A stretch of DNA of 64,000 bases from Brachyhypopomus gauderio (taxonomy: Eukaryota; Chordata; Actinopteri; Gymnotiformes; Hypopomidae): assembly GCF_052324685.1 (NCBI RefSeq), contig NW_027506974.1, forward strand, positions 62,501-126,500. The letters are read 5' to 3'. Position numbers and translations under genes: made by a program. This document shows positions 18,288 to 63,986 of the stretch, piece by piece. The notes below the pieces were generated by a model. It saw nothing but the letters and a program-made list of their open reading frames with translations, had not been told where the DNA came from and made no database searches. How positions within the stretch are numbered: position 1 is the stretch's first letter; each line of letters opens with the position of its first letter.

Positions 18288-21200
18288 CCCCTCCAGCACC
18301 AATATCCAGCCCTACATGTGTCCCTGCTCCCAGCTCAAAGCCAGCAGACAAGCCAGGTCACCCTGCCGATGGACAGACACCTGAACAGTAAGACTGGAGT
18401 AGTTCAACAGTTTCATCTTTGCACGTCTGCTCAGCCCTACATGACTGCAGCTCTTTTATTACATATCGACCATGTTTCTTCTGTACTAGTTATGCCACCA
18501 AACCCACTTTGCAAACCAGATCAGTTACTAATTCAGTTACCGAGTCGCTGATTAATGTGAACGGACTCACTGGCCAGAACTTGCATTTGATTAATAAGGC
18601 GATTACACAAAATATCGAGCCTAATTAATTAGGGAATCAGCTGGAACACAAAAGAATGGGGCATTTGGACTCATACGCAGCAGTCACAAACATTACCCAC
18701 AGGATGTGTTTCTGCCAGAGAGCAGGATTACTGAGGTGAAGAGCTGAGAAGAGATTATGAGGTTTGGAGCTCTTGTGATTAAAGGAGCTCTTGAGAGCTA
18801 CTTACACTGAAGCGACAACACTAAGAAACAGAAAAACAAGGCCTGCATCAAATCAGTAGTTATACTGTAATGAAAGACACATCCCCGTGCATTTAGCCTT
18901 CAGTGGCACAGGGAGTTTAATTTGGCAGAAGGATAAGAGCCTCTTGGCACTGTTTCCAATGGACAGTTTATTTTGTATGCAGAGTGCAGAATCTGAACTC
19001 AAATGTGTTCACGGGTATGAACTCAAATGTGTGCACTGATATGAACTCAAATGGGTGCACTGATATGAACTCAGATGTGTTCACGGGTATGAACTCCAAT
19101 GGGTGCACTGATATGATCTCAAATGTGTGCACTCATATGAACTCAAATGGGTGCACTCATATGAACTCAAATGGGTGCACTCATATGAACTCAAATGGGT
19201 GCACTCATATGAACTCAAATGGGTGCACTCATATGAACTCAAATGGGTGCACTGATATGAACTCAAATGGGTGCACTCATATGAACTCAAATGTGTGCAT
19301 TGATATGCTGTATATGATGCTATAGAGCCTAGGAAACATTGCGCCCACGTTCCACAACTCAATGTGTGTACAACGTTTTCTGAATTCAAATTAGGTGTGG
19401 TAATATTGTCAAGATGATTACAATATGCAATTTACAGTTATGCTATTGGTTGTGTTGAATTAGACAGGAAAAATTACCCTGTCTGCCGCCTGACACTGTA
19501 ATTAACAAATACTCGGACGTCCAACTTCGAGAGATCCTCAAGCAGATGCGTGAACGAACAGAACTGTACAAGGAGAAAATCCTGGATCCATACGCCTCGT
19601 CGCCCGAGCACAGCCCTCCAGTCAGTGAGTACAGAGTCACCTCAGTTCGGGTCACTACACTTTAGTTCAGTGCAATTGCTTTAATTGTCCCCACAGGGGA
19701 GGTGTGTGTTGCAGCCTGATATACTAAAGCTGTAACACAGGAATAAAAACACTCAATACAGCTCATATAGAAAATCCAGTGATCTAAAGATAACATATAT
19801 CACATATGGAATAATCGTGAAGCCTTAGACATGACAGAGTTCTTCCATCTGTTGCTTTTCATCAATGAGAGCCTAATTCTGCATTCTGGAGGAAAAAGCT
19901 GTAACTCATTTAAGTGTCTGGGTAGCTCAGACGCAGTCTTGCTTTAAGGCAGATGAATGTTAGTCAATGGAATTTGGACAATGGTATTTTTTCCACCTTA
20001 ACAATGTGATTGGGGCAATTCGCACTGTGAAATGTAAGTCTGTAAACCAAACAGCCACAGAAAAAAAGTTAAACTAATTTAATAACTCACCTAAAAAAAA
20101 AAAGGCTGACAATCGTCCTTCCCACAATAAACATATTGAACTTCCTTCCTCAGATTGAAGAAATACAATCTCTGCCTGACTTTTTTTTTTACACATTCAG
20201 TATTCACATCAAAGGCCAGCTTATCATCAATAACTGTCCAAAAGTATTTATAACTGTCTACAAAGTCAAGTGCTGTGCTGTTAATCAATACAGGTGATGA
20301 AAACTGGGGCACTTTACAGAAATCGATTGTTTTTGTAATGTTTCATTTCAAATCCATATCTGTGGAACATTGCACAAAGTCCTATAGAGACGGTTTAATA
20401 TTCTTTGAAAGGACACCACACACCACCATATCCAGGAGCATCCACTGACTCTTTATTTATTTATTACTCATCACTATTTCATTTGCCCATTTTTTTTCTC
20501 ACATAGCACCTGTTTTGAGAAAAAAAGATTTCATAAAAAGGCAAGAGGAGGAGAGAAAGAGAAAAGAGGAGGAGGCTAAGAAAGCAGAAAAGGGAGCTGA
20601 GGAACAGAAGGAAAAGGAGACAGAAGAAAAGGAAGAGGAGAAGAAAGAGGAGAGGACGAAAGATGGAGCTGCATCAGCCAAGCAGAAGAACTCTCTCTGT
20701 CCAAATCTCACATGTACCTTCATAGACACTGTGTTGAAGGCCATAGATGACAGAATGGACGATGTCCTTGGCACGTCCTTGGAGCCATTCACAGGTTACA
20801 AACACATCAGAACAAAACACACACTTACTTGCATAGAAACTAGAGTACTGACCACAAACCAGCCAAAATATCTTCAAAAGCTCTCATGCAATATACTGCA
20901 CCTGTTTCAGATTTTTTAAACATTTAAACATCTTGTTCATTCAAATCATCACCTCTAGATCGCCGGTACATCATCTGGCTTAGCATGGTCACTATTGCCT
21001 TGAACTACAACCTTTGGTTCATACCAGTGCGCATGGCCTTTCCCTACCACACTCCGGGGACAATTCCTCTGTGGGTCACCTTAGATGTTCTAGCAGACCT
21101 GATCTACATCATCGACATGCTCGTTTTCCAGCCACGGTTGCAGTTCTGCATAGCCGGAGACATCATCGTATGCAAAAAACTAAGTAGACTATTACCATAA

Positions 21201-24200
21201 TTTCAATAACTTGTTCAAAACTGGATTTGGATTATCAAAAATACATTGTTCTCTTCTATCTTGTCAGTACGACAGAACTGTAATCAGGAAGAACTACAGA
21301 GACTCGGCAAAATTTCAGGTAGTGAAAAAGTAGGACCTAAAAAATGAAAAATTCTTCACACTGAAACTCAGCAGTAACATTTTTCAACTTTCTTCCTGCT
21401 AAGTATGATCTGATATCAGCCTTGCCCCTGGACGTGCTGTGTGTTCCCTTTGGATTCCGGTCTGTCTTCAGGATCAATCGTGTCATGAAAGTATGTCGTT
21501 GTGTCTGTTTTTGATTTGTTTTTGTTACTCAATACTCTAATACACAGTTGTAAAATCTCCAATTGTGACTCCTTTTTGTAAGCTTGGAGCATTTTATGAG
21601 TTCAGTGATCGACTTGAGGGCATAATGACTAAAGCTTATATCTGGAGGTATGTAATCACAATGACTGGTTATATACAACTTCAGCAATGTTATCATTATT
21701 AACACTTGATTCATGTATTTTCCCAACTAAATATGTGATTATTTTCTCTTGTCAGCACTTTAGTGTACCTGACCTTTCACGATCACCCATGTCAGTTGCT
21801 TTCGTCCTTCCATTAGGGTTATTCGTACCATTGGATATCTCCTGTTTGTTCTTCATATCAACTCCTGTCTTTTCTACGTGGCCTCTGAATATCAAGGCAT
21901 TGGCTCCACTAAGTGGGTGTACAGCGGTGAAGGCAGCGCGTGCGTATCTCCACCATTTGTTCACAAGTTACAATGAGTACGTGCAATGTCTCCTAAATTG
22001 ACTATTTTTGAAAATATGTTTACTCTTCCAGAAGAATTGTTGATAGAGTAATTGCAAAGTTTTTTCTGTAATTTTGATTATATAGAAAATGAAGTCTACA
22101 AACTGGTTTCTTCGGCATGAATTATAGCGAGAGTCAGGGGAAACTCTGCTTAATCTTTGCCAAAAAAATCCATTTGATACTTATATACATTTTAAATATA
22201 ATTTTTTTAACATATATTTTTTTGTGGCCCATGAACTATTGTGAGAGCATTAGCCTGTCTGGGTTTTTATATTCTCATAGCTACCTGAGGTGTTTCTTCT
22301 ACTCAGAGAAATCCCTGTTGGTGATCTCAGAGCTACCTTTCCCAGACACCTTATTTGCTCAGATCTTTCAGATGACCAACTATTTCTTTGGGTCGTTTTT
22401 TTTGTCCATCGTTCTTGGCCAGGTAGACATTTTTGTCTCTACACCTTTTTTTTCCTCCCGCTTATTCGTTTCTGATTTTTCCAGTGGCTTTGCCATTTCT
22501 ATTCCTTATATCGACCGAGATTCATATTGTTTAAGTTTGCTGAATGTTGAATGTAAGAGGTCATAAAAGTTTCAAAGTCGCTTTCTGCTCAACAGGTACT
22601 TGCGCTGTTATTATTTTGCTGTGCGGACCCTGATCAACATTGGTGGACTTCCTGAACCTCACACAGTTTTTGAGATCATGTTTCAGTTGGCAAATTTTTT
22701 TGTTGGTGTCTTTGTCTTCTCAAGTTTAATTGGACAGGTAAAAGACACAAGGTGCAGAATTTCCCAGGATTATCCAACCACACCCATTTTTTGGCTCCAC
22801 CCTTTATAAAAATAAAAATAAACTCATTTGATTGATGTTTTGATTTGAAAGTGACAGAATCAATAGTTTTAAGTGGGATTAATGTATCTGGTGCTTCAGT
22901 GTGTGATGTGTTACAGATGCGAGACGTCATTGGTGCAGCCACTGCTGGTGAAACGTACTTTCGCACATCTATGGATACTTGTGTGGCTTACATGGTGGCA
23001 AACCGCATACCCAAAGTGGTACAACATAGAGTGCGTACATGGTACAACTACACCTGGGCCTCCCAGGGCATGCTGGGTAAATATTCCTAGTGGAATTAAA
23101 TGGAACGGAGAATGGAATACGACAAAATATGAAGACTGTAGGACGCAGTATGTGAAGCGTGATAAGACCACTTTCTCCTCAGATGAATCTGAACTAATGG
23201 ACCAGATGCCTCTGGTGATGAGAACAACCATTGCTGTGGACATTAACCTCGCCACGTTCCAAAAGATTGACCTGTTTAAGGTTGGACTCATTGACTCATT
23301 ATCTGGCTCCAATTCATGGCATATTAAAATAATCTATGGTCACTAATAAATAACACATGGATCACTGGCCATACGGTGCTACAGGGGTGTGAGAACCAGA
23401 TGCTGGTAGACATGTTGCTGAGGCTGAAGTCTATAGTGTATCTGCCTGGAGACTTTGTCTGCAAGAAGGTCAGTTCTTCAGTGTTAACAAGTGTGCTCAC
23501 ATTTACCAAAGACTAACAGAATATTAAGGCAATTTATTTCAGCTGTTTTGTCCTACAGGGGGACATTGGTAAGGAGATGTACATCATCAAAGCCGGTGAG
23601 GTGCAGGTTATTGGTGGGCCTGACAACAAGACCGTCTTTGTGACACTGAAGGCAGGCTGTGTATTTGGTGAGATCAGGTAAGGCCGTCTCTGCTTAATCC
23701 ATCGTACAGTGTGTTAATGCATAGAGTCCATGTAAAGACAGAGAGCACGGCTGATGGAATGGACTCCTTCCTAGTCTTCTACAGTCTTCAGCTAATGGAG
23801 GCAACAGAAGAACTGCTAATGTAGCAGCTCATGGATTTGCCAACCTCTTTGTGCTGGATAAGAAAGACCTCAATGACATACTGATTCATTACCCAGAATC
23901 CCAGAAGGTTCTAGCCAGAAAGGGGAGGTCAGCCTAACGGTTAAAAACACGTGCATATTATGATACTGAAATCTGATTTATTACTGAAAAAGACTGACAA
24001 TACTGACTGCTTGCCCTGGTTTGGTAGGAAACTGATGAAGACCAAAGGCTCAGCAGGGGTCAGGACAGAAGAAGAGCGTAAGAAAGGCCTGGAGCTGTTT
24101 GGAGCCAAGCCTCCCACTCCCAAAATGCTTCGTGCTTTTGAAAGATTCAACAAAAAGGGTTTTTTGGAAAAACTTAAGGTAAGAAACTTAAATGAAGTTA

Positions 24201-24310
24201 AACGCATGTTAAATATACAAACAAGAAATGCAACAAAATGCTTGTAGTGTCCTTACTAATTATTTTTTTCTTACCTTTTTGTTTTTTCCTAGAGTGCTAA
24301 AGATCAATAA
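17575..24310 (+). CDS. cngb3: cyclic-nucleotide-gated channel beta-3 (cone CNG beta subunit)
   Basis: This is the modulatory subunit of the cone photoreceptor cGMP-gated cation channel of the outer-segment membrane. Eighteen coding exons join in phase: 17575-17733, 17937-18096, 18297-18387, 19464-19624, 20507-20794, 20959-21167, 21268-21318, 21404-21490, 21583-21647, 21817-21939, 22596-22737, 22917-23076, 23183-23280, 23385-23468, 23559-23677, 23775-23927, 24028-24178, 24293-24310. The product is about 772 aa (human 809). Residues about 198-245 are Lys/Glu-rich, S1-S5 about 287-465, pore and S6 465-512 (filter NIGGLPEP), C-linker to about 598, and cyclic-nucleotide-binding domain 599-717 with FGEIS and NRRTANV, including the Arg-Thr that contacts cGMP. 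The tail is short. The start ATG gives MFHTLKMF, resembling human MFKSL. The second exon could instead end at 18054, which is also in phase. An extra pore exon lies at 22281-22422. cngb3 rather than cngb1 is supported by the sequence and by cpne3 next door. Confidence 0.93.
18228..18285. repeat. (TG)n tract ending 11 nt before a cngb3 exon
   Basis: The TG repeat occupies the 3' end of the intron. Only 'aacccctccag' separates it from the exon starting at 18297, so it sits where the branch point and polypyrimidine tract would be. Confidence 0.9.
18996..19310. repeat. 24-bp minisatellite in a cngb3 intron
   Basis: About 13 copies of a 24-bp unit beginning ATGAACTCAAATGGGTGCAC, with single-base variants. 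Because the unit is a multiple of three it stays open on both strands (Met-Asn-Ser-Asn-Gly-Cys-Thr-His on plus). It lies between exons 18297-18387 and 19464-19624 and is not part of the reading frame. Confidence 0.9.
20097..20312 (-). mobile_element. LINE reverse-transcriptase fragment in a cngb3 intron
   Basis: The minus-strand frame reads like the C-terminal part of a non-LTR reverse transcriptase ([17 protein letters not shown], then [15 protein letters not shown]), matching the usual 'FKYLGV...QQRLYFLRRLRK' pattern. It is short and truncated, antisense to cngb3. Confidence 0.6.
22281..22422 (+). CDS. cngb3: extra, alternative pore exon of cngb3
   Basis: This open segment is a second copy of the pore/S6 exon, 173 nt upstream of the canonical one. 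It has a pyrimidine-rich acceptor ending in 'tattctcatag', a CCAG|GTAGAC donor and exactly the same length (142 nt) and phase. It joins the upstream exon (ending ...GC at 21939) to give Ala-Tyr-Leu-Arg-Cys. The 47 residues align to the canonical 47 without gaps, with 20 identities. Pore positions 14-21 read VISELPFP instead of NIGGLPEP. S6 residues such as Asn33, Gly37 and the final Gly-Gln are kept. Using both exons in one mRNA would insert 142 nt and shift the frame, so mutually exclusive use is expected. It could also be a decaying duplicate, but there is no stop or indel. Confidence 0.72.
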
Positions 24311-32351: not shown

Positions 32352-42086
<9,735 letters not shown>

Positions 42087-42383: not shown

Positions 42384-43537
42384 CATTGGTTTGCAGAAGT
42401 ATTCATACCCCTTGAACTTTTCCATATTTTGTCAAATTACAACCACAAACTTAAATATATTTCATTGGAATTGAATGTGAAAGATCAACACAAAGTGGTG
42501 TACAGTTGTGAAGTGCAAAGAAAATTATACATGATTCAAAACATTTTTTACAAATAAAAAACTGAAAAGTGCGATGAGCAAAAGTATTCAGTCCCCCTGA
42601 ATCAATACTTTGTGGAACCACCTCTTGCTGCAATTACAGCTGCAAGTCTTAGTCTCCACCAGCTTTGGACTGAAATTTTGCCCATTCTTCTTTACAAAAC
42701 AGCTCAAGCTCTGTCAGATTAGATGGAGGGCGTTTGTGAACAGCGGTTTTCAGATCTTGACACAAGGTTAGCCAACATGGCTTCTGGCAAACTGCAAATG
42801 GGACTTGTGTTTTTTTCTTTTAACAATGTCTTTGTTTCTGCCACTCCTCCATGAAGACCACATTTGTGCAGTGCATGACTAATAGTTGTTCTGTGAACAG
42901 ATTCCCTCACCTGAGCTGTAGATCTCTGCATTTCGTCCAGAGTCACCATGAATGTCAACTGCATCTCTGATCAGTGCTCTCCTTGTTCGGCCTGTAAGTT
43001 TAGGTGGACGGCCTTGTCTTGGTAGGTCTATAATTGTGCCATACTCTTTCCATTTCCAGATAATGGATTTTATAATGCTCCGTGAGATGTTAAAAACTTG
43101 GAAAATCTTTTTATAGCCTAAGCCTGCTTTAAACTTCTCCACAACCTTATTACTGACCTGTCTGGTGTGTTCTTTGGACTTCATGATACTTGACTCACCA
43201 ATATTCTGTTAACCAACATCTGAGGCCATCACAGAGCAGCTGTATCTGTGCTGAGATTAGATCACACACAGGTCTACTCTTTTTAGTCATTAGCAGTCAT
43301 CGGGCAACGTTTGAATGCAATTGGTTGCACTTAGAGAAAAGAGGGCTGAATACTTTTGCACACCACACCACACAGTTTATTTGTAAAAAATGTTTTGAAT
43401 CATGTATAATTTTCTTTCCACTTCACAACTGTACACCACTTTGTTTTGATCTTTCACATTAAATTCCAAGGAAATATATTTTATGTTTGTGGTTGTAATG
43501 TGACAAAATATGGAAAAGTTCATGGGGTATGAATCAC
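42384..43537 (-). mobile_element. degenerate Tc1/mariner transposon with long inverted ends
   Basis: The left (42384-42600) and right (43335-43537) ends are inverted copies of about 200 bp, for example gaacttttccatattttgtc and its complement. On the minus strand, 43184-42879 encodes the N-terminal paired-type DNA-binding region (MKSKEHTRQVSNKVVEKFKA, GRPPKLTGRTRRALIR). The overlapping frame 42964-42719 continues it (STAQVRESVHRTTISHALHK), showing a frameshift. The DDE catalytic domain is deleted. The right terminus lacks the outermost bases. Confidence 0.85.
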
Positions 43538-44494
43538 TAAAACCACAAGCACAGGACAAAAGTTTCTAGAAAAGTTGCGGTCTGTAAAAAAATTAATTAA
43601 AAGTGCTTCGTTATGGTAAAATGTTCACGTTCGTGTACACACCCACTAACACAATGCTGCTTTGTTGTGCTGTTGTGTCTATATAAGTTTTTTTGGTCGC
43701 TCCCTGCTGTGTTTTGTTGCTGGTGTGGAAAATAAAACCTCCAAATCTCATCACGCCCATTTTTACGACCAGAATGTCAACTTAAAACACTTTAAAACTT
43801 AAAAAAAAACTTAAGACAGTAAGTTCTCCTCTCCCTTATACTGCAGGCCCAGGTGTCAGATCCACCCCACCCCATTTATGGGGCAAAACAAACTCGACAG
43901 GGTCCCTCAGTGTGTGTTTGAACATCACTTTACTATGAACATCACTTTATTATGAATATAACTTTATCATGAACATCACTTTATTAAGTTAAAATAACGT
44001 GTTTTACGTGTAGCCCACCGCGTAGCTGCCAGTCTGGAGGAAGCAGAGCAGCTGAACTAAGTTAGCTCTCGTTAGCTCTGTCGCTAACCGAGCAGCTATA
44101 CCAGTTATTCCACACCGGTATTTATGATTATCTGAACTATTTCATTACTAATAATAATAAAGGTGGCTAGCTGTGCCGACTAAGTCGACTTTACTAACGT
44201 TAAGCTCGTGTGGGCGAACTTTTCGAGGTTAGCTACGCTGCTAACATCAGCCACCATCAGCCGTAAGTTCAGTGTTATTATCACACACTACACTACAGTT
44301 TTAATGATACATCTCTCACTACTCACTCTATTACCCGCGAGTGCTTCAGCTGTGTTTCCCCCTCCAGTCGTTCACATGAACCAGTGTTGGGTAAGTTCAC
44401 TCCGAGACACCGTGTGCGGTTGTCCTCACGTCTCTTCCTGCACACTCAGCCCTCAACATCGCTCCATTCCCCCTGAGAGGCGGTGGGGCGGGCC

Positions 44495-45234
44495 GCCTCA
44501 CTCACACACAACCGGCACGCCTCACCCACACACAGAACCGGCCCGCCTCACCCACACACAGAACCGGCCCGCCTCACCCACACACAGAACCGGCCCGCCT
44601 CACCCACACACAACCGGCCCGCCTCACCCACACACAACCGGCCAGCCTCACCCACACACAACCGGCCCGCCTCACCCACACACAACCGGCCCGCCTCACT
44701 CACACACAGAACCGGCCCGCCTCACCCACACACAACCGGCCCGCCTCACTCACACACAACCGGCCCGCCTCACTCACACACAGAACCGGCCCGCCTCACC
44801 CACACACAACCGGCCCGCCTCACTCACACACAACCGGCCCGCCTCACCCACACAGAACCGGCCCGCCTCACTCACACACAGAACCGGCCCGCCTCACTCA
44901 CACACAGAACCGGCCCGCCTCACCCACACACAACCGGCCCGCCTCACCCACACACAACCGGCCCGCCTCACTCACACACAACCGGCCAGCCTCACCCACA
45001 CACAACCGGCCCGCCTCACCCACACACAACCGGCCCGCCTCACTCACACACAACCGGCCCGCCTCACCCACACACAACCGGCCCGCCTCACCCACACACA
45101 ACCGGCCCGCCTCACCCACACACAACCGGCCCGCCTCACCCACACACAACCGGCCCGCCTCACTCACACACAACCGGCCCGCCTCACTCACACACAACCG
45201 GCCCGCCTCACCCACACACAACCGGCCCGCCTCT
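44495..45234. repeat. 24/26-bp GC-rich VNTR
   Basis: About 30 tandem copies of a unit like CCGGCCCGCCTCACCCACAC plus 'acaa' (24 bp) or 'acagaa' (26 bp), with CCC/CTC variation. The open frames of up to 343 codons (Pro-Ala-Ser-Pro-Thr-His-Asn-Arg) are repeat artefacts. It lies about 2.4 kb upstream of the cpne3 start codon. Confidence 0.95.
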
Positions 45235-46280
45235 GTTAGGGTCAGTTACAGGCTTTAAAGCAATAAAGAAATGCATAAATAAATAATAAACTTATATTTA
45301 AATAAATAAATAAATAGAAATATATAAATATCTGTATCTCTCTCTCCCCAGCCCCCTGCATATTTAATTTTCACTCAATAAATTATTAAAATTATTAATC
45401 AAAATAGGCCTGAAACCTGTTTCGCCTAACAATTTATTAAACCCAACACTTTCATTTTTTTTAAGGAAAAAAAAAACTGTTTAATGATACTCATGCTAGT
45501 CATAACAAGAGTGGGAATTACTCACAACTGACATTTTAAGGTTGAATTATCATTACAGATGTGTGTGGTCGTCACTATGTGTGGTAGAGGTGTGTGTCGA
45601 CGTCAGACTCCCTTCGCACATGGACCAAGAGTAAATTCAGCTTTTCTGCTCTATTTATGTATATGTACGTGTTAAACACCAGAACGTGTTGCCAAGAATA
45701 CCATATAAGACCTGATGATGAGTTTTCTGAGAATGTTACGAACAGGGACTACAGAGCTGTTTTGACACCTGGCTTAATTTCTCTACAGATATCTCCGGAA
45801 CATGCAAAAGCATTTTGGTAACATGGAGTCTGGGTTATACCAAAGTATTTAATGTTTATATAAATGTTTTTCATTATATCTTGTAATGACTGGAAGAAAT
45901 AATACTTCCAAATTAGGTTAGTGTACCTGTCTGCAGTGGTTGTGCCACTCGGGAATGAAAGATTAAAGCTGTAGTTCTCACAATACTCCTCGTCAGATCT
46001 TATACACTCAATTCACCGAGGACTTTCCAGGCCACCGGTATATTCCTTGATATGTTCGGGTGTTTACAGAGACTCACAAAATGTTAAGGATATTTGGCTT
46101 TCGGGTGCAATTTATTTAGGATGAACCTACACTGCCCTCTAAACTCTACACGTGATCATAATGTGACCTTCTCTAAACCTTTGAATGCACATGTCCAACT
46201 GTACGGTGTTTCAGTACGTTTTGCATAACTTGCTGTTCTCTACTAAGGAGTTTAAAAGCAAAATCCTCAGCAGGTGTTTG
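45235..46280. other. no gene seen
   Basis: A/T-rich sequence with AAAT-type simple repeats near 45.27-45.32 kb. No exon or mobile element was identified. Confidence 0.5.
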
Positions 46281-48171: not shown

Positions 48172-48316
48172 CTAACTGGACTTTCCAGCATAGATTTCTT
48201 TCAGGTACTGTAGCTCATCGAAGAGCTTCTTGTTTTGCACCTCCAGCATTGTAAGGCGTGTCTCTAGGCAGCGTATATACTCTCTCTTCCTACGGCGACA
48301 CTCTTTAGCCGCCTCC
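48172..48316 (-). CDS. crem: second bZIP (DBD II) terminal exon of crem
   Basis: Alternative last exon spliced after ...MKNR. It encodes EAAKECRRRKREYIRCLETR, then a leucine zipper ending in EIYAGKSS and stop. The acceptor is 'gtgcttttgcag'. The EAAKECRRRK and EVQNKKL signatures match the DBD II exon of mammalian CREM, which chooses between two bZIP exons. Using it gives a 242-aa protein, or a 110-aa ICER. Confidence 0.9.
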
Positions 48317-48580
48317 CTGCAAAAGCACAAGCGACAAATGCAACATACCACATTCACTGACTCCAGAACAGTGCAGGAGACATGCTTTCTAACACCACCA
48401 ACAGATGCAGGCACAAAAGGTCTTCAACACACAGAATTACACACATGAGGCAACCATGGCCTTTTCTGGCTGTTGCGAACAGTAGTTAAACAAGAAGTAT
48501 AAAGCACCTTTGCCCAGATGCTTGCAGTAGCCTGCAACGAGGAGTCTCTTTAATGTCTGGCCTAAAATGGCCTTTCACTA

Positions 48581-56625: not shown

Positions 56626-59600
56626 TCACCACTGGGGGGGCACATAGCTGTAAGTGGGAGTTCCGGGGGGTCGATAGGTGGGCACAGTGACAGGGTGAGG
56701 AGCTACTGGAGTTGGGGAGTGAGTTGTTAATAAAGTTCCTGTGGTTTAAAGGAAACATAATGTGTAATGTAATCACGTAGGTGAGAGACATCTTTGTCAA
56801 ACACTATTAGCTCTTTCTTCAATATCCTTCATTATCCAAAACGATTACGAAGGAAAATAATATTTTATGCCCTCATTCTGAGGTTTCAGATTCATTTATT
56901 GTATGAGGTGCTATTAGAATAGCTAAAAAACATCAACAACGATAACCTTCTCACATACCAGCTGACATTGCCATTGTAGTGCCTGCTACCATTCCCATAG
57001 CAACGCCATTAGGACGAGGAGGTGGGATAGGCGGAGCATAAATAGCCGCTGGCATGCCATTGGGCTGAACCACTGTAGTGTGATGAATTACATGGGGCGG
57101 GGCGGCGTACAATGGTTGTGTGTAGTAAGTGCCTTGCTGCTGTGGAAAAGAAGATACATTTTGGAGAAACAAACTTACGGAGCCCGTAAGGTGACATCAT
57201 GTAAAAAATATAATAACGCATGGCCACGACTTACTAATGAGTGCGAACGCCTTACTAACGCGTGGCCACGACTTACTAACGCGTGCGAACGAGATATTTA
57301 AGGCGTGGGAACGAGATAATTAAGGCGTGGGAACGAGATACTAATGTCGCCTTTTACGCGTGGCAACAAAGTTTATTTTTTCACAGCAAAGCAAGCAGAT
57401 CCCAGGGTTGTTCGTGAACTGACTGCCAAGGAGGGGATGTACACTAACTGCCTGCCCAAGGAAGGTAAACCTGGCTTTATATAAAGTAATACTTAATTAT
57501 CTCGTTCGCACGCGTTAATTATCTCGTTCGCACGCGTTAGTAAGTTGTGGCCACGCGTTAGTAAGGCGTTCGCGCGCGTTAGTAAGTCGTGGCCACGCGT
57601 TAGTAAGGCGTTCGCACGCGTTAGTAAGTCGTGGCCACGCGTTATTATTTTTTTACATGATGTCACCTTACGGGCTCTGTACAAACTAACATATGTGCAC
57701 TGAAGAAACAATTAAGTATAGGAATTCCTTCCACCAGGGGGAGGGAGATATAGTGCCATACAAAGTTTAGCTCCAATACACACATTCAGATGTTACTGAT
57801 GGCCTTAATGGGCACACTTATTTAACCACTCACCTGAGCGTAAGGATTTTGCTGAGGATAGGAAGTCCTCACAGGGTAGACTGCAGCAGGGTAGGGGTTA
57901 GGTGATGTGGAGTAGGGGGGGACAGCACCTGTTGTTGGGGAGCAGGACATTTTGAAAGGTGTCCCTGGGGCATAACCTAGAAGGTGATTTAAAAAAAGAG
58001 ATTTCAATACATAACCTTTGTAACATTCCTATTTAAAGGTGTTACACTCATATAAGGACAAAATACTGTTTGCTTAAGAAGCTTTTAGGTTGTGTTCATT
58101 ATGCTGAAGTAATACTCTTAGGGAAATCTTAAAAGAAACATTGAGAGGTGTGTCATTTTGAGTCATGTTATATTGTCCCATGAATGCCTCCATTTTGGAA
58201 CTGAAATAAAAAGAACTCTAGATGCTGGAAGGCTGTGAAAAGCCAAATCTTGAACATCTGAGTAAGGAAGACCAGAACTCAGCACTAAAAACAGATCCTA
58301 TATGTCCAATACATTTGCCTGGTTAACACCATTATCTCATTTATTTTGTTTGCTTGTTTGTGTTTTTTAACATAAGTGTAATTTGGAATGCAAGTCACAT
58401 CTTTAACCATTTCTTATGGTACGCACATTATGGTAACACATTTACATCATTGTTTAAGTAAGTGAATGTTAAAAAGTACATCATGTTAAAATAAATCATA
58501 AAACTTACAGCATATCAATATTATAACTACTACATTACAAGATTATAGCAGGCACATCACATAATAGAAAGTGTAATACATATTAGTTTTGATCTGAAAA
58601 ACAAATTTATAATACATTTAAATACATTAAATGAAAGTCAATAAATTAAGACTATTTAGAATACATAAGGTATTTTAGGACTCTGAAAAGCCAAATTAAT
58701 TCTAAATCATTTTGGTGATGGAAACAGCAAACCTGACAACCTGTCAGTCTCAAATAGTGGGCAAAGCCTCAATATATGGTACCCAATTTAACTGTCCTTC
58801 CAGTTAATGTGGGATTAACTGCCTTGTTTAATCACAATGCTAACATCTATAATTTCACGTATTTAACATATTTTAATTTTATCTGGTTTGTTCATGTTTA
58901 GCCACTTTGTTATAGTTTAAGCTTTCTTAATTTATCTGACTTGTAATTCTTTTAACATCATTTCAATTTAATGTTTTTAAATACATCATCTAATTAATTC
59001 AAAATCTGTTCCCATAGTGGACACATCTCGATTCAAAACACAATATTAAAAACATATTCTGACAAACATAAAAACACAATCCTAAATTCTTAAAGTTCAA
59101 GTAAACCGATCATTTATATTATCTGACTGTTCCTAATGAACATTTGTGTGTCAACAATTTTTCGAAAAGCACTTGAATCATATATTAACCTGTGGTTCTA
59201 GTAACCCTGTGGTTCTAGATGGATGACACTAAAGCATCCATTTACTGAGAAGAAATGGAATGACTCAATCAGCTATTCTGTGACTTAAGCTCGTCATTGT
59301 GACAATGACCATCTTAGATGTAAAGAGAGGAATACAAAAGTGAATTGGAATGAACCATAAAAAGTACTCTTTGTTTTCTACAACTCCCCTTGTTCCCTGG
59401 GCAATAAAAACTGGAAAACAGTCAGATGATGAAACCATAGTGTACAGGCCTCAGTGAGAAGGATATGATCCACACGTGGCTTCTAACCTTTAAGAAGCTG
59501 GAGCTAAGAAGCACTGTGTGTGTTGAGAGTTTACCTGTGGGGAATGCGGGGTTGGCTCCAGGGTACATGTTTGGAGAATAGGCCGGAGCAGCTGCGGCAT

Positions 59601-62084: not shown

Positions 62085-63690
62085 AATCAATCAATCAATC
62101 AATCAATCAAATTTTATTTATATAGCGCTTTTTACAACAGTTGTTGTCACAAAGCAGCTTTACAAGTGCCGAGTCCTAGCCCCATGGACGTAGTTTTGAT
62201 TTCATAAGTGGGGGGGACACAACCTGGGGTGGCGAACTGTTGAGCGGGGGGGGGGGGGTTGAATGAAAATTGTTGAGCGCTGTGAACAAAAATTGTTGAG
62301 CGGGGGGGGGGGGGGGGAGCTCGGAGCTGCATGATCCTAGTGCTAGATTTGTCGCTATTTGGATATTGTTTTTTTAACCGTTAAAAAGTGGGGGGGACAT
62401 GACTTCGTCGCTACTTAAATATTTGGTTTTAACTGTAAAAACTGGGGGGGACCAAAACCGGCTTTTGAAAAAGTGGGGGGGACATGTCCCCCCCGTCCCC
62501 CCCCAAAACTACGTCCGTGCCTAGCCCCCAGTGAGCAAGCCAAGGGCGACAGTGGCAAGGAAAAACTCCCTAGTTTTTTGCATGAGGAAGAAACCTTGAG
62601 AGGAACCAAGACTCGGGGGGGGGGACCCATCCTCCTCTGGCCGACACCGGTCACCATGACAACAACAACAATTTAGACAGAAAGAAATAAAGAAAAGGAA
62701 AAGATGTAGTATTGTCCATCATGGTGTAGGCTTATCCGGTCAGACAGTAGGTGGCTGGCACTGGATAACTCGCTTGCCTCTCCTCATCTCATTTTTCCTC
62801 GAGCAGGCGGGCAGCCATTTGGAGAAAATAAAACAGGGAAAATTAGCTCTGTATGAGGACATATACAGGACAGATGAAATTAAACACATTTCTGGAGTGT
62901 GGCAGCAACTCCGGCATTAAGTTAAACTATTACAGCCTAGCTAAAAAGGCAGAACCAGAAGGTAACATAGGCTTGGGGGCATTCTGAGACAATGGCATCC
63001 ATCCACTGCACTGTCAACAAACTTGAGTGACCACGAGCAGTGACAGGACGACAGCACCAGCGCCCCAGTCTACCATAAAACCCTTCGTCTATGAACCCCT
63101 GGATCTGTACCTTTATCTAAGGGGGGATGTTAATTATCAAATGCTAAACCAAATAGGTGGGTTTTCAACCTAGACTTAAAGATTGTGACTGTGTCAGAGT
63201 CCCGTACGCATTTTGGGAGGTTGTTCCAAAGCTGGGGGACATTATAAGAAAAGGCTCTTCCCCCTGCTGTTACCTTATTAATTTGTGGAACTACTAAAAG
63301 ACCAGCACCCTGTGATCTTAGTTGACGTGGGGGTTCATAGTAGGAAATAAGTTCCTGGAGGTATTCAGGAGCAAGCCCGTGTAGTGCTTTATATGTTAAT
63401 AATAGAATTTTAAAATCAATACGAAATTTAACTGGGAGCCAATGCAGTGCTGATAGGACTGGTCTAATATGCTGAAATTTTCTAGTTCTGGTCAGAACTC
63501 TGGCTGCGGCATTTTGAACTATTTGAAGTTTATTTAGATTCCTATTTGAACATCCTGACAGTAGTGAATTGCAGTAGTCTAATCTAGAGCTAACAAAGGC
63601 ATGCACCAATTTTTCTGCATCATCCTGTGATAATGCATTTCTTAATTTGGCAATGTTGCGGAGATGTAGAAATGCTATCCTAGTAGTATT
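62085..63690 (-). mobile_element. L2-like LINE, 5'-truncated copy
   Basis: Minus-strand frame 63609-63130 encodes the C-terminal part of a non-LTR reverse transcriptase: SSRLDYCNSLLSG, LSALHWLPVKFRIDFKI, LTYKALHGLAPEYLQELI, then PQLWNNLPKCVRD and FKSRLKTHLF. The 3' UTR follows and ends in an (ATTG)n tail at 62085-62110 (AATC repeats on plus), as L2-type elements do. The upstream reverse-transcriptase and endonuclease parts are missing. A hAT MITE interrupts the 3' UTR. Confidence 0.8.
62183..62519. mobile_element. hAT MITE nested in the LINE 3' UTR, rich in G-runs
   Basis: A 337-bp insert with inverted ends CATGGACGTAGTTTTG and CACGGACGTAGTTTTG, flanked by the perfect 8-bp duplication CCTAGCCC (62175-62182, 62520-62527). 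It carries repeated 'ttgttgagcggggggg' blocks, G-runs up to about 15 and the palindrome-like GGGGGACATGTCCCCCCC. No coding capacity. Confidence 0.85.
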
Positions 63691-63695
63691 ATCTA

Positions 63696-63986
63696 CAGGG
63701 TTGCCAACTTTTGACGTTCGCTTGGAGTGAGATTTTAACCTGGAGCCGGTGGCGAGTGTATTTTGTTGAGCGGGGGGGGGGACACAGATTCAGTGTTATA
63801 TCGCCGGTGGATGGCGCCAGAGCTAGCGAACTAGTAACGTAGGCTATTGAATCATATATGTGGATCTGAGGTAAATAAACTGGATATTTTTTTTCGGCGT
63901 GAGATATCGGAAGTGTGGCGTGAGAGCGTGTGAAAACGGTCAAATGCGTGTGTCTCACGCTCAGTGCGTGAGAGTTGGCAACCCTG
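63696..63986. mobile_element. MITE with CAGGGTTGCCAACT inverted ends
   Basis: The 14-bp terminal inverted repeat CAGGGTTGCCAACT is exact at both ends. TATCTA occurs directly outside each end, although an 8-bp duplication is not clear. About 200 bp of the right half is shared with 12411-12622 inside the 980-bp hAT element (aaataaactggatattttttt, then 'ttcggcgtgagatatcggaa'). Confidence 0.7.

Follow-up and report, generated by a model that had tools for sequence, protein, structure and literature searches.

Does the cngb3 gene at this locus have a second pore exon, and if so, could splicing between the two give one gene two different channel pores? In photoreceptors the light-controlled current flows through CNG channels, which also admit the Ca2+ that drives feedback. 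The gene lies on the + strand of the window, by which we mean the whole stretch of 64,000 nucleotides that was analysed, on a contig (C130) of a 796.5-Mb assembly. Our model starts at the exon 20507..20794, which encodes a lysine/glutamate-rich N-terminal region, and another exon lies upstream of it near 19465-19629. Next come the exons for the S1-S3 region (20959..21167), a short exon at 21268..21318, and the exons for the S4 region (21404..21490), the S4-S5 linker (21583..21647) and S5 (21817..21939), the last with the donor CGC/GTGCGT (slashes mark exon borders). On the other side of the pore, the exon 22917..23076 begins with QMR, which includes the arginine-gate residue, and starts the C-linker; it is followed by a further C-linker exon (23183..23280), three exons of the cyclic-nucleotide-binding domain (23385..23468, 23559..23677 and 23775..23927), an exon for the C-terminal region (24028..24178) and the last exon with the stop codon (24293..24310). 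Whichever pore exon is used, the modelled exons join into a single open frame of 581 residues that runs from 20507 to its stop codon at 24310, and within these limits the frame is intact through S1-S6, the C-linker and the ligand-binding domain. A spliced segment of 139 residues scored 225 bits against human CNGB3 versus 214 against human CNGB1; judged by its sequence, which is nearer to CNGB3 than to CNGB1, the gene is CNGB3, the beta subunit of the cone CNG channel.

The window has other features as well. A tandem repeat with a unit of about 24 nt (18990-19310, by eye) lies just 5' of the first located cngb3 exon. Pfam matches to Copine and C2 on the - strand (33222-33536 and 41572-41856) mark a copine-like gene, which agrees with CNGB3 and CPNE3 being neighbours in human. 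Also on the - strand are Pfam matches to bZIP (48175-48423; CREB/ATF-like by eye) and TCRP1 (56954-57196). Three open frames were characterised by eye: 44184-45236 holds a long repeat reading PARLTHTQ, 42882-43208 (-) resembles the start of a Tc1-type transposase, and 63133-63789 (-) resembles the end of a LINE reverse transcriptase and was not matched by any Pfam family at E up to 0.1. The window had no Rfam match at gathering thresholds and no tRNA.

Two consecutive open segments lie between the S5 exon and the exon that starts at 22917. The downstream one (22596..22737) is the canonical pore exon with the filter NIGG; 40 of its 47 residues are identical to human CNGB3 and 34 to human CNGB1. 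It is the equivalent of human CNGB3 exon 11, which has the same length of 142 bp, covers residues 394-440 with Tyr394 as the first, and whose skipping is written p.(Y394*) (PMC12146803). The canonical filter (22636-22647) is itself odd: it reads NIGG and not TIGG, with Asn where human CNGB3 has Thr407, and Thr also occupies this position in the four cngb1 pores that were compared. The upstream segment (22281..22422), hereafter ALT, encodes a pore helix, a filter reading VISE and S6, and is separated from the canonical exon by an intron of 173 nt (22423..22595). An earlier note on this DNA had described both as open segments of 142 nt and 47 residues with AG acceptors, GT donors and equal phases (2 in, 0 out), whose gapless alignment has 20 of 47 residues identical, and all of this was reproduced. 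The flanks are CTCATAG/C and CCAG/GTAGAC for ALT and CAACAG/G and ACAG/GTAAAA for the canonical exon, and 78 of 142 bases are identical between the two. Their BLOSUM62 score was 116 versus a maximum of 33 among 100,000 shuffles. When ALT was searched against PDB with phmmer (E up to 10), six CNGB1/CNGB3 sequences matched over residues 1-47 with E values of 2.2e-9 to 6.3e-8 and the remaining three matches had E values of 0.54 to 1, so that only CNGB stood above noise. CNGB-type pore homology is found across the pore helix, filter and S6 of ALT. Pfam Ion_trans matched the spliced segment at 26.8 bits when it contained the canonical exon, and at E up to 0.1 did not match the segment that contained ALT.

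The reading frame dictates how the two exons could be used. Either exon alone keeps the frame between 21939 and 22917, and each isoform is then open to the stop codon. When both are joined a stop follows after 19 codons of the second, canonical exon, and skipping both shifts the frame. Because both together lead to a stop and neither to a frame shift, use of ALT and of the canonical exon must be mutually exclusive; they are adjacent homologous exons of equal phases that cannot be included together. In the expected transcripts the S5 exon, which ends at 21939, would be followed by one of the two pore exons, and this in turn by the exon that begins at 22917; a transcript with both pore exons or neither would lose the frame.

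The splice sites of ALT are plausible and, by their sequence, weaker than the canonical ones. With a simple matrix, the ALT donor scored 4.98 versus 7.21 for the canonical donor and the ALT acceptor 3.72 versus 5.83, which places the ALT donor and acceptor at the 93rd and 95th percentile of the 289 GT and 317 AG sites between 20 and 25 kb. Neither the ALT donor (CAG/GTAGAC) nor the canonical donor (CAG/GTAAAA) has G at +5. Directly 3' of the ALT donor is a pyrimidine-rich tract at about 22429-22485, and only 3 of 4800 windows of 56 nt are richer. A U-rich tract after a weak donor is a trait of TIA1-dependent exons, and a splice factor of this kind is a candidate for the control of ALT. Counts of Musashi, Fox, Nova, PTB, TIA and MBNL motifs, which were made without a control, gave nothing decisive. 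The end of the tract is a strong-scoring acceptor (CAG at 22482-22484, AG at 22483-22484) that lies outside every modelled exon. Two other models of exclusion were rejected. For RNA pairing, the intron-intron duplex energies were unremarkable against block-shuffled sequence: for the three intron pairs 14-30 of 100 shuffles reached energies as low, and for ALT paired with the upstream intron 80 of 100 did. For a steric or distant-branch-point model, no convincing branch point was found in the 173-nt intron, because all four of its YTNAY motifs lie upstream of intervening AGs.

The divergence between ALT and the canonical exon is greatest at third codon positions, which is a coding-type pattern: identities at the three positions are 28, 33 and 17 of 47 (position 2 versus 3, Fisher p 0.0018), with 11.9 expected at random for the third. 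Two codon models rejected neutrality of the ALT branch. The first compared two sequences and set their branch times equal (2dlnL 18.9-20.6 in six settings); the second, a four-sequence model, added the two cngb1 exons and left branch lengths free (2dlnL 7.7-9.6 over three topologies). In the latter an omega of 0.2 was rejected at 5% (4.55-4.87) and 0.1 was not (2.03-2.45). The fits of the codon models reach saturation bounds, so that the omega values say little more than that omega is well below 1. The divergence that needs explanation is about 0.5 substitutions per site (0.46-0.54 in the four-sequence model). In a neutral simulation to 0.5 per site, with an assumed 0.1 indels per substitution, of which an assumed 80% were frameshifting, none of 4000 exons stayed intact from each of two starting sequences; when only stops and splice sites were counted 3-4% did. 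Long-term coding constraint on ALT is therefore supported. The earlier note had claimed selection from an exon that is intact despite its divergence, and the codon models and the simulation bear this out; it had also proposed dN/dS for the extra exon, and by NG86 dN between ALT and the canonical exon is 0.475 with dS saturated.

What would a channel with the ALT pore be like? Pore residues are numbered here as in human CNGB3. CNGA filters read TIGE and CNGB filters TIGG (PMC10761061), and among the seven CNGA-like loci that were retrieved for the same genome six have TIGE and one has TVGD. ALT departs from the CNGB filter, which has Gly where CNGA has Glu, and its VISE places a Glu where CNGA subunits carry theirs. 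The ALT residues are K403, V407, I408, S409, E410, G430, L434 and L438, and the canonical ones R403, N407, I408, G409, G410, G430, F434 and I438. In the alignment ALT keeps a basic residue at 403, the S6 hinge Gly430 and hydrophobic residues at 434 and 438; the functional roles of G430 and F434/I438 are described in PMC10761061, as is R442 as the arginine gate, which sits in the downstream exon common to both isoforms. Of 29 positions that are invariant in six CNGB pores ALT retains 17, and the 12 that are changed include G409 to S and G410 to E in the filter and both cavity-gate residues. Cone channels have three CNGA3 subunits and one CNGB3 subunit, and Ca2+ block is weaker with the beta subunit, in part through one filter position that has Gly for Glu; in heteromers weaker Ca2+ binding would result from loss of the filter Glu together with the basic R403/K841, and in a Gly-to-Glu mutant of CNGB1 Ca2+ block was much enhanced (PMC10761061). 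In the ALT isoform the voltage-sensor-like part, the C-linker, the ligand-binding part and the arginine gate of the common exon would be retained, and a channel of three CNGA3 and one ALT-CNGB3 would have four acidic residues at the filter mouth, not three. From such a ring of four Glu a stronger divalent block is predicted, so that cells using ALT would have stronger external Ca2+ and Mg2+ block and an altered Ca2+ flux. The changes from Thr/Asn to Val and from Gly to Ser in the filter could instead make ALT poorly conducting.

The most likely explanation for this locus is that ALT is an old exon with a function, used in place of the canonical cngb3 pore exon and never together with it, and on the sequence evidence we put the probability of this at about 0.68. 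An open stretch of 142 nt is weak evidence by itself, and 54 of the 488 AG-142-GT pairs in the window (11%; 29 of 228 on the + strand and 25 of 260 on the - strand) are open in that frame. In spite of this, the notion that ALT is a chance open stretch deserves practically no credence; it is refuted by the gapless CNGB homology across all 47 residues, with a shuffle z of 10, and this homology is the real signal. It is unlikely, yet deserves more weight than the other rivals, that ALT was functional for long as an alternative exon, recently went out of use and is a relic that is not yet broken. Neutral decay of less than about 0.05-0.1 substitutions per site would fit the simulation started from ALT, in which 35% of exons were intact after 0.05 and 13% after 0.1 substitutions per site, and a relic would also fit the loss of CNGB-invariant positions and the lower scores of the ALT splice sites. 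However, the frame, both splice sites and the length of ALT are intact, the gate residues have changed conservatively, from Phe and from Ile to Leu, and ALT still has the hinge Gly and a basic residue at 403. Less likely still, and by a clear step, is that ALT is a poison exon whose protein sequence is irrelevant and whose inclusion next to the canonical exon would put the transcript out of frame and lower cngb3 output. The stop that follows joint inclusion is what such an exon would produce, but it would need neither constraint at the protein level nor a kept frame, and both are seen in ALT.

Where ALT came from is a separate matter. When the same genome was searched with ALT (E up to 10), four places were among the matches listed: the two pore exons of this cngb3 gene, and one pore exon each on contigs C2 and C11. 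The genes on C2 and C11 are called cngb1 here because their pores have the residues common to human and bovine CNGB1 at the positions that tell CNGB1 and CNGB3 apart. The earlier note had taken ALT for a tandem duplicate of the canonical exon. The adjacent homologous exon upholds part of this; ALT may or may not be a plain copy of its neighbour, as it is equally near or slightly nearer to cngb1 pores, with 22-23 of 47 identities to four of them versus 20-21 to two cngb3 pores, and topologies mildly favour cngb1. Eight positions separate these cngb1 and cngb3 pores, and there ALT sides with cngb1 three times, with cngb3 once and with neither four times. IQ-TREE grouped ALT with the C2 cngb1 pore at 68% support (47 sites, long ALT branch), and among six topologies the three that join ALT to cngb1 scored best. 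Placing ALT with both cngb3 pores or basal to all CNGB was 4.1 log units below the best in each case (AU p 0.008 and 0.034), and placing it as sister to the canonical exon of the window was 4.5 units below (AU p 0.079). None of the six was rejected by the KH and SH tests; the alignment has no more than 47 sites, and the branch that leads to ALT is very long. These data would suit a pore exon copied from cngb1 or a duplication that predates the cngb1/cngb3 split, and we consider such an origin possible, if on the unlikely side. The position of ALT next to the canonical exon favours tandem duplication instead, neither cngb1 locus shows a second pore exon (over the 9.9 kb covered, no further tblastn match of either pore peptide had an E below 0.12), and the pre-split version is disfavoured by its AU value. 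Either origin is compatible with use of ALT as an alternative exon and does not compete with the functional explanation. Given 47 sites and a long branch, ALT may stem from tandem duplication, from ancient duplication or from a cngb1 copy.

Codons at shared residues are identical at 9 of 20 for ALT and the canonical exon, 14 of 34 and 12 of 32 for the canonical exon and the cngb1 pores, and 21 of 39 between the cngb1 pores. By these shares, which come from few sites, ALT looks about as old as these gene duplications. The second pore exon may be very old and may have been lost or overlooked elsewhere. A search of the same genome with the canonical query gave one cngb3-like locus among the matches listed. 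Zebrafish has cngb3.1 and cngb3.2, and the portions of PMC7912379 and PMC8370914 consulted mention no cngb3 splice alternative for them. Two other collections are not informative on fish: no pattern match to the ALT isoform segment was found in viral contigs, and in prokaryotic contigs the canonical segment had 11 pattern matches, none of which was a relative by tblastn.

The claim that one gene makes two channel pores holds as far as the second pore exon, the compatible phases and the intact cngb3 gene are concerned, while the two pores themselves are predicted from sequence. It is a tentative proposal, for which we would give somewhat less than even odds, that a vertebrate CNG beta-subunit gene switches its filter from the CNGB-type Gly to a CNGA-like Glu by mutually exclusive splicing, and that the channels would then differ in Ca2+ block and feedback between sensory cells. 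If it is true, one gene could give two channels that handle calcium differently, a CNG gene would be able to diversify its pore without gene duplication, and a natural splice switch would offer a test, within an animal, of the role of filter charge in photoreceptor adaptation.

The earlier note knew of no CNG gene with a duplicated pore exon, and this agrees with our search, as no duplicated or alternative CNG pore exon was among the matches listed from open-licence PubMed Central full texts. According to PMC12146803, no alternative exon splicing had previously been reported for human CNGB3 and none was seen in human macular RNA-seq. Filters swapped by splicing and tandem exons enriched in ion channels are already known, and a CNG-channel case would be new. 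Human tandem duplicated exon substitution events are mostly ancient, and ion channels are over-represented among them (PMC9741552, whose main text does not mention "CNGB"); like them, the two cngb3 exons are adjacent and homologous, and by the frame they would be mutually exclusive. OGDH exons 4a and 4b are likewise mutually exclusive with a short intron between them, a likeness that for cngb3 is drawn from sequence; OGDH has distant branch points (PMC7969005), whereas the YTNAY motifs of the cngb3 intron all precede other AGs. A further likeness is to NALCN, with its alternative selectivity-filter exons 15 and 31: in both, one channel gene has alternative pore exons that swap filter residues, in cngb3 by a presumed splicing choice. 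NALCN is a four-repeat channel that changes EEEE to EKEE or EEKE, and its alternatives run from flatworms to non-chordate deuterostomes, vertebrates having one pore (PMC3557258), whereas cngb3 encodes a single-repeat cyclic-nucleotide-gated beta subunit and the case is in a fish.
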